Virus record (IMG/VR): IMGVR_UViG_3300036670_000191
Span: 1-29,417 of that record
Strand: one strand, 5' to 3'
Length of the DNA: 29,417 bases
Source of the DNA: a virus
The position numbers and the translations under genes are program-made. This document shows positions 4,696-16,710 of the stretch, piece after piece. The notes under the pieces are model-generated. The model made no database searches. It was given only the letters and a program-made list of their open reading frames with translations, and was not told where the DNA came from. How positions within the stretch are numbered: position 1 is the first letter of the stretch; every line of letters starts with the position of its first letter.

Positions 4696-4868
4696 GAAAC
4701 CCAAACCTGGCCATTTCGCTCAGTCTGATTGGGCTGGCCGCGGGAGCTTTTCTCGCTGTGGAGGTATTTCACCCAGCACATTCTCCCAATGGGTGGATCC
4801 TTGCAGGGATTATTTTTGGCGCTTATGGGCTTATGGTGTTTGTTTTTGAGGCTTTTTCCCATGAGTAG
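4692..4868 (+). CDS. small membrane protein, two transmembrane segments
   Basis: 58 residues with two hydrophobic helices, about residues 7-26 and 35-54, separated by a short loop containing HPAHSPNG. It is therefore probably a small inner-membrane protein; the N terminus has one Arg and few other charges. It starts in an ATGA overlap and ends inside the next gene's first codons. It is far from the lysis region, so a holin role is unlikely; the function is unknown. Confidence 0.65.
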   Translation: MRNPNLAISLSLIGLAAGAFLAVEVFHPAHSPNGWILAGIIFGAYGLMVFVFEAFSHE

Positions 4869-5184
4869 CAAGGGCAGAGGGCTGATTGCTTTGAAAGAAA
4901 TTACGCCAGAAAAACTTGAGCAAAAGGCTAAAGAACGGGAAGCTGGCCGGCTGGCAAGACTGAACAGGCTCAGCGCAGAGCGTTTGGGGCAAGAGCGTGT
5001 TGAGGCTGAAGCTGATTTGCGTAACGTGAACACTCGGTGCCAGTTGCGTGCTATGGAGTTGCGGTGGGCGCGGGGGATGGGTGTGGCGGGGATTGCTGAG
5101 TGGTTGAAGGTGTCTGAGGGGACTGTTTTGGGTTGGCTTGAGGCACCTGTTGAGGTTGAGCTAACAGGAGGGTTGAGAAAATGA
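4861..5184 (+). CDS. helix-turn-helix DNA-binding protein
   Basis: 107 residues starting at the ATG overlapping the upstream stop by eight bases. Residues 15-70 are a long charged helix with coiled-coil character (EKLEQKAKEREAGRLARLN). Residues 72-94 (GMGVAGIAEWLKVSEGTVLGWL) form a resolvase/MerR-like helix-turn-helix. This suggests a dimeric DNA-binding regulator of early genes. The target is unknown. The C-terminal tail overlaps the next ATG. Confidence 0.7.
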   Translation: MSSKGRGLIALKEITPEKLEQKAKEREAGRLARLNRLSAERLGQERVEAEADLRNVNTRCQLRAMELRWARGMGVAGIAEWLKVSEGTVLGWLEAPVEVELTGGLRK

Positions 5185-9345: not shown

Positions 9346-9374
9346 TTGACCTCAGCATGATGTAACGATAAACT
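9346..9374 (+). promoter_or_regulatory. sigma70-type promoter, predicted leaderless transcript
   Basis: TTGACC, 17 bases, TAAACT: a good match to the vegetative consensus. The -10 ends six bases before the ATG of the primase-polymerase gene, so transcription should begin at or within a base or two of the start codon. No ribosome binding site is present, as expected for a leaderless message. It lies in the 106-base gap after the HNH gene and is the best-formed promoter in the window. Confidence 0.7.
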
Positions 9375-9380
9375 TTTAGC

Positions 9381-9938
9381 ATGACCGTTTGTGAAGTATG
9401 CAAGACCCCCATTGCGCCTGGTGCGCGTGGCAGGAAGCCCCGCTTTTGTGGCTCGAATTGTCGAGTGCGTTCGCACCGTGGAGAACATATCCCGCGTGAG
9501 TTGAGGATGCTGGCCCGGTGGATCCGCCACCGCAATAAGGTGCCTTTGACAATCACGGGCAGGCCGGCGAGTTCGACCAACCCGTTGACTTGGAGTTCTT
9601 ACTCTGATGCCAGGCGCTCTGTGAAGGGTGACGGTTTGGGCTTTGTCCTGAATGGTGACGGAATCGTTTGCATTGATCTTGATCATTGCTTTGACGGCGT
9701 TCCCTCAGTTCAGGCTCAGGCTGTTCTAGATTTGTTCCCTGACACTTATGTGGAGGTCAGCCCTAGTGGGACCGGGTTGCACATTTGGGGTTTTGCGCCT
9801 TTGCTGAAGGGCCGCCGTTTCACGTTGAATGGTTTGAGCGTGGAGGTTTACCCTAGTGGCCGCTATATGACTGTGACTGGCAACGCTGTGAATAGTTCCA
9901 GCTTTGCGGATTTAGACTTATCACAAATTCTGCCCTAG
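9381..9938 (+). CDS. primase-polymerase-like protein with N-terminal zinc motif
   Basis: 185 residues. A four-cysteine motif at residues 4, 7, 23 and 27 (CxxC, FCGSNC) resembles small DNA-binding zinc ribbons. The rest carries the three AEP/prim-pol motifs: IDLDH with Asp99 and Asp101, SPSGTGLHIWG with His134, and VEVYPSGRYMTVTGN with Glu155. This suggests an archaeo-eukaryotic-type primase/polymerase catalytic core, but the protein is short and has no helicase domain. It lies between the HNH and small terminase genes rather than with the replication genes. The start is chosen from the leaderless promoter. Confidence 0.7.
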   Translation: MTVCEVCKTPIAPGARGRKPRFCGSNCRVRSHRGEHIPRELRMLARWIRHRNKVPLTITGRPASSTNPLTWSSYSDARRSVKGDGLGFVLNGDGIVCIDLDHCFDGVPSVQAQAVLDLFPDTYVEVSPSGTGLHIWGFAPLLKGRRFTLNGLSVEVYPSGRYMTVTGNAVNSSSFADLDLSQILP

Positions 9939-9976
9939 CGAAACGCCGGGGGGATGACTCGAAACGAGGACACAAA
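9938..9976 (+). promoter_or_regulatory. paired CGAAACG hairpin leader of the small terminase gene
   Basis: Two mini-inverted repeats with an AAA centre: GCG-AAA-CGC (9938-9946) and CTCG-AAA-CGAG (9958-9968). The CGAAACG cores are 21 bases apart. The second hairpin contains part of the GAGGA ribosome binding site (9966-9970), five bases before the ATG. Bases 9957-9976 (ACTCGAAACGAGGACACAAA) are identical to bases 10720-10739 before the large terminase gene. Confidence 0.7.
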
Positions 9977-10434
9977 TGGTGATGCCAGGAAAAAAGCCCA
10001 CTAACGGGCCTACAGTAACAAGACACAAGCCCACGGTGGATTGGGTTGACGTCATTGATGTGCCCTTCACGGGCGAGTGTCCTGAGTTGCCTGATGTGAG
10101 AATGGTGGCAACCGGCCAGGGCGATATTTACCACGTTCCCATTCCCAACGGCACTTATGTGTGGTGGCGGTCTTTGCGGCGGATGCCTCATTGTGTTTTG
10201 TGGCAGGACTCTGATTGGTCTTACGCTTTGGACACGGCCATGGTTCATGCTCAAGCGTCTTTGGGCCAGATTGGTGCAATGGCTGAGCTACGGATGAGGG
10301 AGAAAACTTTGGGCACTACGGTGGATGCGCGGCGTGACTTGAGGTTGCGTTATGTGGATCCGGTTGTTGAGGCGGTTGTGTTGGCCCCGGTGGCTGATAT
10401 TAGTGACCGCCGTCAACGGTTGCTTGACGATTAG
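9976..10434 (+). CDS. terS: terminase small subunit
   Basis: 152 residues. The sequence follows the actinophage small terminase pattern: ELPDVRMV, GQGDIYHVPIPNGTYVWW, then helices around AMVHAQASLGQ and MREKTLGTTVDARRDLRLRY. The small subunit recognises the packaging site and regulates the large subunit. It starts at the ATG after the CGAAACG leader with GAGGA as ribosome binding site. The large terminase gene is separated from it by 307 bases that contain a gene on the other strand. Confidence 0.75.
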   Translation: MVMPGKKPTNGPTVTRHKPTVDWVDVIDVPFTGECPELPDVRMVATGQGDIYHVPIPNGTYVWWRSLRRMPHCVLWQDSDWSYALDTAMVHAQASLGQIGAMAELRMREKTLGTTVDARRDLRLRYVDPVVEAVVLAPVADISDRRQRLLDD

Positions 10435-10440
10435 TTGGTG

Positions 10441-10470
10441 AAAAGAAAAAGCCCCCGCCTGAGCGAGGGC
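10441..10470 (-). terminator. intrinsic terminator of the leftward 46-residue gene
   Basis: Read leftward, GCCCTCGC, loop, GCGGGGGC (one mismatch) is followed directly by TTTTTCTTTT, a strong rho-independent terminator. It lies 17 bases beyond the stop of the leftward gene. Read rightward, the same hairpin has only CGTTTCTG after it and should be weak. Confidence 0.8.
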
Positions 10471-10486
10471 CGTTTCTGTGTCAGGC

Positions 10487-10627
10487 TTACTCTTTTAGCC
10501 ACCAGTCAATGATTTGCCCAGATTCCATCATTTCGTTATAGCCATTTTCCATGACCTCTTTTTGTTGTTGAGGCCAAATCTGGGTTCTGACAAGTCCTTC
10601 AGAGAACTTAATGTTTGCAATGAGCAT
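10487..10627 (-). CDS. leftward 46-residue protein between the terminase genes (moron-like)
   Basis: 46 residues beginning MLIANIKFSEGLVRTQIWPQ and ending IIDWWLKE. The ribosome binding site GGAAAGGA lies five bases before the ATG. Downstream is a strong leftward terminator; upstream is a leftward TTGACA (10697-10692). This is a self-contained transcription unit opposite in direction to all surrounding genes, the hallmark of a moron. The protein is probably helical and acidic at the end with three tryptophans; I recognise no family. Roles such as host modification or exclusion are typical of morons, but nothing here shows one. Confidence 0.7.
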   Translation of the reverse strand: MLIANIKFSEGLVRTQIWPQQQKEVMENGYNEMMESGQIIDWWLKE

Positions 10628-10652
10628 GGGGTTCCTTTCCAGTGGAGGCGTG

Positions 10653-10697
10653 CTGATTACTCAAAAGTAACACACTTTACACTTTGCGCAATGTCAA
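10653..10697 (-). promoter_or_regulatory. leftward promoter and operator-like repeats
   Basis: Read leftward: a perfect -35 TTGACA (10697-10692), then two tandem AAAGTGT repeats (10685-10672), then the inverted repeat TTACT-TTTG-AGTAA (10670-10657). A -10 at 17-base spacing would be TGTGTT, a poor match, so the -10 is uncertain. The repeats lie where a repressor or activator would bind. The only clear rightward signal in the same stretch begins downstream with the leader of the large terminase gene. Confidence 0.5.
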
Positions 10698-10698
10698 C

Positions 10699-10739
10699 GG
10701 GCGAAACGCCCCACGACTCACTCGAAACGAGGACACAAA
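10699..10739 (+). promoter_or_regulatory. paired CGAAACG hairpin leader of the large terminase gene
   Basis: GGGCG-AAA-CGCCC (10699-10711) and CTCG-AAA-CGAG (10721-10731); the CGAAACG cores are 21 bases apart, exactly as before the small terminase gene. The second hairpin overlaps the GAGGA ribosome binding site (10729-10733). The final 20 bases repeat the small terminase leader without change. This fixes the start of the large terminase at the ATG of base 10742. Confidence 0.7.
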
Positions 10740-10741
10740 AA

Positions 10742-12403
10742 ATGCGAGAGCTAGTTAAGGCTGATGCCCATAACAGGCACCTAAGCCTGGGCTGGTTTGC
10801 CATTTGGTGGATGGAAACATTTTGTGTGCATGGCCCTGGTGACGTTCAGGGCCAAGACGTTGAACTGGATGATGAATGGGCCAAGTTCATTATTGATTGT
10901 TACGCGCTGGGCGAGGATGGCCGGCGTCTTTATGATTCCGTTTTTCTTTCCCGCGCTAAGGGCCGCGCCAAGTCTGAACTTGCCGGGTTCATTGTTCTCT
11001 TTGAGGCGCTGGGACCGGCAAGGTTCTCCCATTTCTCGGATGGGACAGACCTCTATGAGCGTGACGGCTTTTCCTACCAGTACGCGGTGGGGGAAGTTGT
11101 GGGGAGAAACGTCACAGCGCCCGTGATTCGTTGCCTAGCGACTGAGGAAGGGCAGGCGGGCAACACATACGACAACGTATATTTCAACCTCACTGAGGGG
11201 CCACTAGCGGCTGGACTCCCACGGGATGCCGCGGGACTGACACGCATTTTCCTGCCAGGCAATGGCGAGATTATTCCGTCAACTGCCAGCAACAGCGCCA
11301 AAGATGGCGGCAAGGAAACCATGGTGGTGTTTGACGAAACCCACCTGTACACCCGGCCAGAGCTAAAACGTATGTATCAGACCGTTAGACGAAATCTTGC
11401 CAAACGAAAAATGGCTGAACCGTGGTCCCTCGAAACCAGCACCATGTACTTGCCGGGGGAAGAAAGTGTGGCTGAGGCTACCCACAAACTGGCCCAAAAA
11501 ATTGTGGAGGGCAAGACGTCACGCCAGCGGTTGTTGTTTGACCACCGCCAGGCAGATCCAGACATTGACTTAGGTGATGAAGCCCAGGTTATTGCGGGAT
11601 TGCGTGAGGCGTATGGGCCGTTTGCTGAAGTCATGGATTTGGACCGCATTGTGTCTGAGATTTATGACCCACGGAATGAGCCAGAGGATTCCCGCCGCTA
11701 CTATTTCAACCAGCCCACCAGCGCCAAAGATGCGTTTTTGTCTGCCCCTGAGTGGACCGCCCGCTATAAGCCGCTGGAAATTGCCAACGGTGAAGAAATC
11801 ACTTTGGGCTTTGACGGCTCACGCAAACGTTCTAAGGGCGTGACAGACGCCACAGCTCTTGTGGCGTGCCGTGTTTCAGATGGTCATGTTTTTGAGATTC
11901 GCATTTGGGAGCAACCAGACGGCCCTCGCGGCGAGGACTGGGAAGTGCCTGTTGCTGAAGTTGACTTTGAGGTTCGCAAAGCCCATGAAACGTACAAGGT
12001 TGTGGGAATGTTTGCGGATCCTGCCAAGTGGGAGTCATACATTGCCCAGTGGGAATCAGACTTTGGCCGCAAATATAAAGTGAAGGCGAGCCTTTCCCAC
12101 CCTATTGAGTGGTGGATGACTGGCAACAGGTCACATTTGGTGGTGCGGGCGGTGCAACAGTTCCAAGACGCTGTGATTGATGGGGAGCTATCCCATGATG
12201 GGTCACTGGCGTTGACCCGGCACATCTTAAACGCCCGCAGACGTGTTGGCCGTTCTGGTATGAGCATTTCCAAAGAACACCCTGATTCCAGGAACAAGAT
12301 TGACGGCGCGGTGAGCGCAGTTCTGGCGTTCCAGGCGAGGTTGCAAGCTTTGTCTAAAGGGGAGGCCACCAAAAACACATTTGTTCCCCGCCGTATTCGT
12401 TAG
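10742..12403 (+). CDS. terL: terminase large subunit
   Basis: 553 residues, the usual size. The packaging motor ATPase has a deviant Walker A at residues 70-79 (SRAKGRAKSE) and Walker B MVVFDET with Asp198 and Glu199, followed by a coupling-motif region near ETSTMY. The C-terminal RNase H-like nuclease shows Asp358 (LGFDGS), Asp426 (FADPAKW) and Asp521 (NKIDGAVSA), which cut concatemers into headfuls or at a site. The start is the ATG after the duplicated leader; a longer frame running back to 10514 passes through the leftward gene and has no terminase similarity. It acts with the small subunit and portal. Confidence 0.92.
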   Translation: MRELVKADAHNRHLSLGWFAIWWMETFCVHGPGDVQGQDVELDDEWAKFIIDCYALGEDGRRLYDSVFLSRAKGRAKSELAGFIVLFEALGPARFSHFSDGTDLYERDGFSYQYAVGEVVGRNVTAPVIRCLATEEGQAGNTYDNVYFNLTEGPLAAGLPRDAAGLTRIFLPGNGEIIPSTASNSAKDGGKETMVVFDETHLYTRPELKRMYQTVRRNLAKRKMAEPWSLETSTMYLPGEESVAEATHKLAQKIVEGKTSRQRLLFDHRQADPDIDLGDEAQVIAGLREAYGPFAEVMDLDRIVSEIYDPRNEPEDSRRYYFNQPTSAKDAFLSAPEWTARYKPLEIANGEEITLGFDGSRKRSKGVTDATALVACRVSDGHVFEIRIWEQPDGPRGEDWEVPVAEVDFEVRKAHETYKVVGMFADPAKWESYIAQWESDFGRKYKVKASLSHPIEWWMTGNRSHLVVRAVQQFQDAVIDGELSHDGSLALTRHILNARRRVGRSGMSISKEHPDSRNKIDGAVSAVLAFQARLQALSKGEATKNTFVPRRIR

Positions 12404-16037: not shown

Positions 16038-16061
16038 ATTTTCACCTTGACTGGTGAGAAG

Positions 16062-16097
16062 GCGCGAAACGCGCAAACCGTAAACGAAACGTGGAGG
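16062..16097 (+). promoter_or_regulatory. paired CGAAACG hairpin leader of the scaffold gene
   Basis: GCGCG-AAA-CGCGC (16062-16074) and ACG-AAA-CGT (16084-16092); the CGAAACG cores are 20 bases apart, nearly the spacing before both terminase genes. The ribosome binding site GGAGG (16093-16097) directly follows the second hairpin. The flanking bases differ from the terminase leaders but remain complementary. Confidence 0.65.
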
Positions 16098-16107
16098 TAA
16101 CAACCTA

Positions 16108-16710
16108 ATGACCGCAGAAAACACACCAGAACCCGATGGCGTCACAACACCTGAAGGTGAAGCGCCTGGGGGAGAGAGCCAAGATGGCGGGGAGAACGCT
16201 GAACCTACAGTTGCCGATTTACAGGCAGAGGTAGCCAAGTGGAAGTCTCTCAGCCAGAAAACTGAGAAGCAGGCGAAAGCCAATGATCAGGCTGTGAAGG
16301 ACTTGGAACAACTGAAAAGAACGCAACTAACAGATCAGGAACGGCTGGTTGAGTCTGCCAAAGATGAAACCCGCCTAGCTGTTCGCGTTGAGTTTGCCGG
16401 AAAGATTGTTGATGCAGAGTTCAAATCAAGCCTGGCTGGTCGCTCTCTAGACGGTAGTGCTTTGCTGGATTTCGATAAAGGTTCATTCATCACTGACAGT
16501 GGCGAGGTGGATTCTGAAGCAATCACGGCATGGGTTGACGCTCATAGCACAAAAACGGCACTCACCAGCCCTGACATGGGGCAAGGAACTAGAGGCGCAA
16601 ACTCTGATCTTTCACAGATCAGTTCGCGTGATGAGTTCAAGAATATGTCACCTGAACAAATCCTTGAGGCCCACAACAGTGGCCGCCTTGACAAAATGAT
16701 GGGGAAGTAA
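16108..16710 (+). CDS. capsid scaffolding protein
   Basis: 200 residues. The N-terminal 35 residues are acidic and disordered (PEGEAPGGESQDGGENAEP), residues 35-95 form a coiled coil (VADLQAEVAKWKSLSQKTEK), and the C terminus ends in a basic helix (PEQILEAHNSGRLDKMMGK) like the coat-binding end of phage scaffolds. It lies directly before the coat gene with 24 bases between. It guides coat assembly inside the prohead and is then expelled or degraded. The start follows GGAGG. Confidence 0.85.
   Translation: MTAENTPEPDGVTTPEGEAPGGESQDGGENAEPTVADLQAEVAKWKSLSQKTEKQAKANDQAVKDLEQLKRTQLTDQERLVESAKDETRLAVRVEFAGKIVDAEFKSSLAGRSLDGSALLDFDKGSFITDSGEVDSEAITAWVDAHSTKTALTSPDMGQGTRGANSDLSQISSRDEFKNMSPEQILEAHNSGRLDKMMGK

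Follow-up and report, generated by a model that had tools for sequence, protein, structure and literature searches.

A probable cargo site for small leftward genes at the terS-terL junction of one clade of actinobacterial phages, and a repeated tandem-hairpin leader across their group

In the virus record IMGVR_UViG_3300036670_000191, a 46-codon open reading frame (p46) runs leftward between the rightward genes for the small and large terminase subunits, and a 20-nucleotide sequence is repeated in its neighbourhood. This raises the questions of whether p46 is a gene, how it came to lie within a packaging operon, and what the repeated sequence represents. The whole stretch of 29,417 nucleotides (positions 1 to 29,417 of the record), referred to here as the window, belongs to a siphovirus-like actinobacterial phage, as judged from its gene content. 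Its rightward gene run encodes ERF, replication, HNH, prim-pol, TerS, TerL, SPP1-type portal, MuF-like, scaffold-like and capsid proteins. Among relatives whose host is named, the nearest is a prophage of Aurantimicrobium minutum (Microbacteriaceae), with a TerL that is 73% identical.

The small subunit gene, terS (9976-10434, plus strand), matched the Terminase_7 profile (PF25673, E=3e-14), and the large subunit gene, terL (10742-12403, plus strand), matched phrog_9 (E=5e-78). PHROG 226 labels the product of 9976-10434 a minor tail protein, a label that looks wrong; the gene is taken as the small terminase because of the Pfam match and the gene order. Between the terS stop at 10434 and the terL start at 10742 there are 307 bp, with a single leftward ORF inside.

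That ORF, p46, occupies 10487-10627 on the minus strand, and a Shine-Dalgarno (SD) sequence, AAAGGA (10633-10638, minus strand), lies 5 nt ahead of its ATG. The preliminary description of this DNA, which had reported an opposite-strand 46-codon gene with a good ribosome binding site between the two terminase genes, was thus accurate on these points. The length of the ORF alone is no evidence for a gene, because an ATG-initiated ORF of at least 46 codons was present in 37% of dinucleotide-shuffled cassettes; an ORF together with an SD was present in just 5%. In a codon model trained on the window's own genes, p46 scored 0.255 bits per codon, the highest value among 73 minus-strand ORFs of 40-70 aa (median -0.26) and inside the range of the window's own genes, most of which scored 0.14-0.39, with two below. 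The remaining five readings of the same DNA scored below -0.15. Codon score and SD therefore favour a truly coding ORF. It was found in the window and in one relative, L002, only, with zero differences across the ORF between the two.

The leftward unit ends in a predicted intrinsic terminator just past the terS stop codon (10440-10471, minus strand; stem 10471-10450 plus T-tail). Its stem is 9 bp long and its fold z-score is -4.65, with none of 200 shuffles as good, so that the strong T-tailed terminator described earlier was confirmed. A further leftward terminator-like hairpin lies within the start of terS (9994-10011, minus strand). The perfect TTGACA noted in the preliminary description is present (10692-10697, minus strand), at the edge of the conserved block of the terL leader described below, but its proposed promoter role did not hold up. 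No -10 partner was found at 16-18 nt (the scan gave 0 promoters, with 1.0 expected), and TTGAC(A/G) is kept in relatives with other cargo or none, including an allele without p46; TTGACA is therefore probably not the cargo promoter. The scan found no sigma-70-like promoter belonging to p46, and the most plausible candidate, a weak one, is TTGCGC-N16-TACTTT (10664-10691, minus strand). The repeats reported earlier as operator-like exist, namely the inverted repeat TTACT-CAAA-AGTAA (10657-10670) and the tandem AAAGTGT repeat, AAAGTGTAAAGTGT (10672-10685, minus strand), and both are putative operators as judged from their sequences.

The preliminary description had likened the unit to a moron and had suggested a comparison with relatives lacking it. 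Besides the window, 50 relatives were inspected at the terS-terL junction. An exact 8-nt overlap of terS and terL was found in 39 of the relatives, an overlap of just several bases, counted from where the match begins, in five more, and a 7-nt gap in one. The junction is open in six genomes only (the window, L002, L004, L005, L006 and L007), which form one clade in the TerL tree with a support of 100/99. Four alleles were distinguished: 307 bp with the p46 gene in the window and L002; 587 bp with two unrelated leftward ORFs of 56 and 59 aa in L005 and L006; 327 bp with low-complexity A/T runs in L007; and 62 bp, consisting of the leader only, in L004. Leftward small genes are thus present in two of the four alleles, with a terminator abutting terS, and the terminator of L005 is a different one at the same left edge as that of the window. 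The leftward unit of L005 is preceded by a promoter-like TTGCAA-N17-TACAGT. The change starts at the terS stop codon, and both terS and terL are intact.

L004 and L005 are 95.4% identical in terS and 96.3% in terL, and their last 48 bp ahead of terL agree at 48 of 48 positions, yet their gaps differ by 525 bp (62 vs 587 bp). The junction of L004 could have lost its cargo later, instead of having been empty from the start. In L007, the terS-terL interval (1899-2225) holds A/T low-complexity runs and no plausible gene; apparently it is either decayed cargo or an assembly artefact.

Both cargo genes of L005 recur elsewhere. The 56-aa gene (p56) has a counterpart in a related phage, L125, where it lies among early genes that run rightward (91% protein and 88% DNA identity), and the 59-aa gene (p59) has one in an unrelated phage lineage, L128-L130 (97% protein and about 88-89% DNA identity), where the homologue in L129 is likewise antisense to head-tail genes. 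In L129 an antisense unit of two genes (54 aa and 59 aa; 4811-5180) is situated between a glycosyltransferase gene and the head-tail genes, and its 59-aa product is the one 97% identical to the L005 cargo. The window and L002 share a 3-kb block (window 9371-12370) of about 98% identity with far more divergent flanks, covering prim-pol, terS, the cargo and terL; its longest identical run, 268 bp, is the cassette. From the alignment, this block is read as a recombination block. The DNA around the cargo is thus swapped between phages, which supports exchange of this DNA and not of p46 by itself.

Morons are self-contained transcription units (PMC3029335, PMC6316719). Like them, the p46 ORF is missing from close relatives and lies between genes that are adjacent in relatives, and its cassette has a lower GC content (46% vs 53%), its own terminator and an orientation opposite to its neighbours; its promoter, in contrast, is only putative, the site is reused by different cargo, and an extra late-gene leader is provided for the downstream gene. 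The moron-like organisation claimed earlier is therefore supported: very close relatives are without the segment or carry other leftward genes at the same point, and the two alternative genes also occur in other phages. On the comparative evidence, the terS-terL junction is quite likely a cargo site of the moron type.

The nature of the p46 product was examined by sequence and fold searches. No homologue was found in Pfam, PHROGs, NCBIfam, PDB sequences, phages, plasmids or GTDB genomes, and among the viral contigs searched L002 was the sole match. The homology search suggested earlier thus showed p46 to be an ORFan with one identical copy, and the statement that the protein has no recognised family stands, with no significant homologue or fold match. 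A match to a UmuD-like PHROG (E=0.3) and one to a Bradyrhizobium plasmid (E=7) were rejected. The fold predicted from the single sequence is beta-beta-alpha-beta (pLDDT 73), in a small acidic protein, and a fold search with this model returned nothing significant. At low confidence, it may be guessed that p46 acts on a component of the host or of a competitor phage.

Two other interpretations of p46 were considered. One is that the protein is an inhibitor of host RNA polymerase similar to Gp2 of phage T7, which inhibits RNA polymerase. The two best fold matches in the PDB are chains of T7 Gp2 (TM 0.63), and the predicted fold, small size and acidity agree with this idea, but the matches have E=1.6, a probability of 0.47 and 14% identity, the model was built from one sequence at modest pLDDT, and no significant sequence or fold match places p46 among Gp2-like proteins; this identification is extremely improbable. 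The other interpretation is that the ORF is spurious and that the interval is a non-coding spacer or specifies a leftward antisense or structural RNA, as might be thought from the frequency of equally long ORFs in shuffled cassettes, the ORFan status of p46, the want of a good promoter and the gene-free interval of L007. This is rather unlikely, given the top codon score among the 73 minus-strand ORFs, the well-placed SD and the rarity of an ORF with SD in shuffles. The pair of leftward ORFs at the same site in L005 and L006, whose counterparts in other phages retain the frames with 91-97% protein identity, and the terminator z-score also speak against it.

The 20-nucleotide sequence ACTCGAAACGAGGACACAAA occurs exactly twice in the window, at 9957 and 10720 (0 expected). 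It is the end of a longer element of two hairpins with AAA-type (GNRA-like) loops, in which the second hairpin has the SD in or beside its 3' arm and its loop is 9-19 nt from the start codon. A covariance model identified three copies on the plus strand of the window, ahead of terS (9934-9970), ahead of terL (10697-10733; hairpins 10699-10711 and 10721-10731, SD GAGGA at 10729-10733) and ahead of a scaffold-like gene (16060-16095). All three scored E=3.5e-6 to 2.5e-5, and the next match had an E-value of 3.3. The scaffold-like gene (16108-16710, plus strand) directly precedes the gene for the major head protein, encodes an acidic coiled sequence and has homologues behind leaders in relatives; its name is inferred.

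The leader pattern fits 33 of 34 distinct sequences directly ahead of terS, the exception being L062. In the stems, 93.5% of cells are paired, compared with 74.6% in shuffles and 21-44% when the pattern is slid, and both sides are changed in 62 vs 20 cells, figures to be read with the fact that the search pattern itself included the two inner pairs of hairpin 2 and that hairpin 1 was chosen by best stem. The unbiased covariation is that of the two outer pairs of hairpin 2 (CG 18/UA 9/other 2 and CG 14/UA 14/AU 1). Trained almost exclusively on terS copies, the covariance model recovered the scaffold copies in relatives as well. Among 15 records, three matches were obtained in each of four genomes of the open-junction clade and two in 10 of the 11 others, with one in L011; in the A. 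minutum genome the only matches were the two of its prophage. More distant loci, from Nocardia, Streptomyces and others and 335 kb in total, gave no match below E=0.5, so the leader is confined to this phage group within the loci searched. A search of Rfam with the leader gave no family, only a single chance-level match on the other strand (E=0.98), and the literature searched, with partial coverage, yielded no description of the leader and none of Aurantimicrobium phages. By these comparisons, the leader is a conserved, covarying tandem hairpin ahead of terS and the scaffold gene across the phage group, normally in two copies per genome. The terL leader is, on the same grounds, an added copy, since open-junction genomes have three matches and relatives mostly two; it most resembles the terS copy and occurs only in the clade in which terS and terL are apart.

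These results bear on the preliminary suggestion that leaders duplicated on both sides of p46 mark the boundary of an insertion. The copies bracket terS plus the cassette rather than the gene, and the same hairpins precede terS and the scaffold gene in relatives with no insertion, so that neither part of the suggestion was upheld. Insertion scars, whether from target duplication or from recombination ends, would account for an exact 20-bp repeat with cargo between two copies, but they are very improbable in view of a left copy placed before terS, about 500 bp from the cargo, a leader ahead of terS in nearly all distinct aligned relatives, none with an insertion, and a third copy before the scaffold gene. 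Recombination between leader copies is possible, though the element did not originate from an insertion. The palindromes might also be operators, that is, double-stranded protein sites, rather than RNA hairpins; they are short, as is typical of operators, and the distance between their centres is often 19-21 bp, close to two turns of the helix. A DNA site would be expected to keep its stem letters, whereas here these change in compensating pairs (CG/UA/AU in the outer pairs of hairpin 2) and the loop is kept, the spacing varies from 13 to 25, and the location follows that of the SD and start codon, which makes operators an improbable explanation.

In one clade, the ancestral 8-nt overlap of terS and terL has been opened exactly at the terS stop codon, and the DNA that fills the interval is interchangeable. 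The most economical course of events to propose is a single placement of a copy of the terS leader together with foreign DNA at the junction, in the clade's ancestor. The extra leader probably maintains the translation of terL, making up for the translational coupling between terS and terL that ended with their separation, and for this reason the junction may be a permissive docking point. Small leftward units could since then have been gained, lost and exchanged in the interval, the cargo changing by recombination between phages. We infer that a promoter at about 10664-10691 drives leftward transcription of p46, with translation from 10627 and termination at 10450-10440, so that late rightward transcription would hardly be disturbed.

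Whereas the cargo gene p46 belongs to a known kind, the leader, earlier interpreted as marking a boundary, is the more surprising of the two. It may tentatively be regarded as a cis-acting RNA of a new class, which in actinobacterial phages governs how translation of terS and of the scaffold gene is initiated and whose duplication onto terL made the junction a docking site for exchangeable cargo, an interpretation that we hold at somewhat less than even confidence. The junction alleles offer a nearly clean natural experiment: at a single site, relatives that are 95-96% identical in both terminase genes are empty, carry different cargo or hold DNA that seems to have decayed. They show how foreign genes can be accommodated by a phage within a packaging operon whose genes are tightly coupled. 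The conserved pair of covarying hairpins upstream of terS and of the scaffold gene is a testable candidate for a translational control element of late genes.

The boxB element of lambdoid phages has short stems with GNRA-type loops and follows a promoter. The leader shares the short stems and GNRA-type loops but, unlike boxB, overlaps the SD and has tandem copies. In cluster K mycobacteriophages, SAS/ESAS elements, of unknown function, recur beside the translation starts of some of the genes and are accompanied upstream by inverted-repeat features (PMC3203893). The leader resembles them in being repeated and tied to start codons; the 13-bp SAS, GGGATAGGAGCCC, found near start codons, was absent from the leader sequences, and no sequence relation was seen. 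The SAS is a fixed 13-bp asymmetric sequence present in 11-19 copies in the non-structural half of the genome (PMC3203893), whereas the leader consists of covarying tandem hairpins, occurs two or three times and precedes structural and packaging genes.
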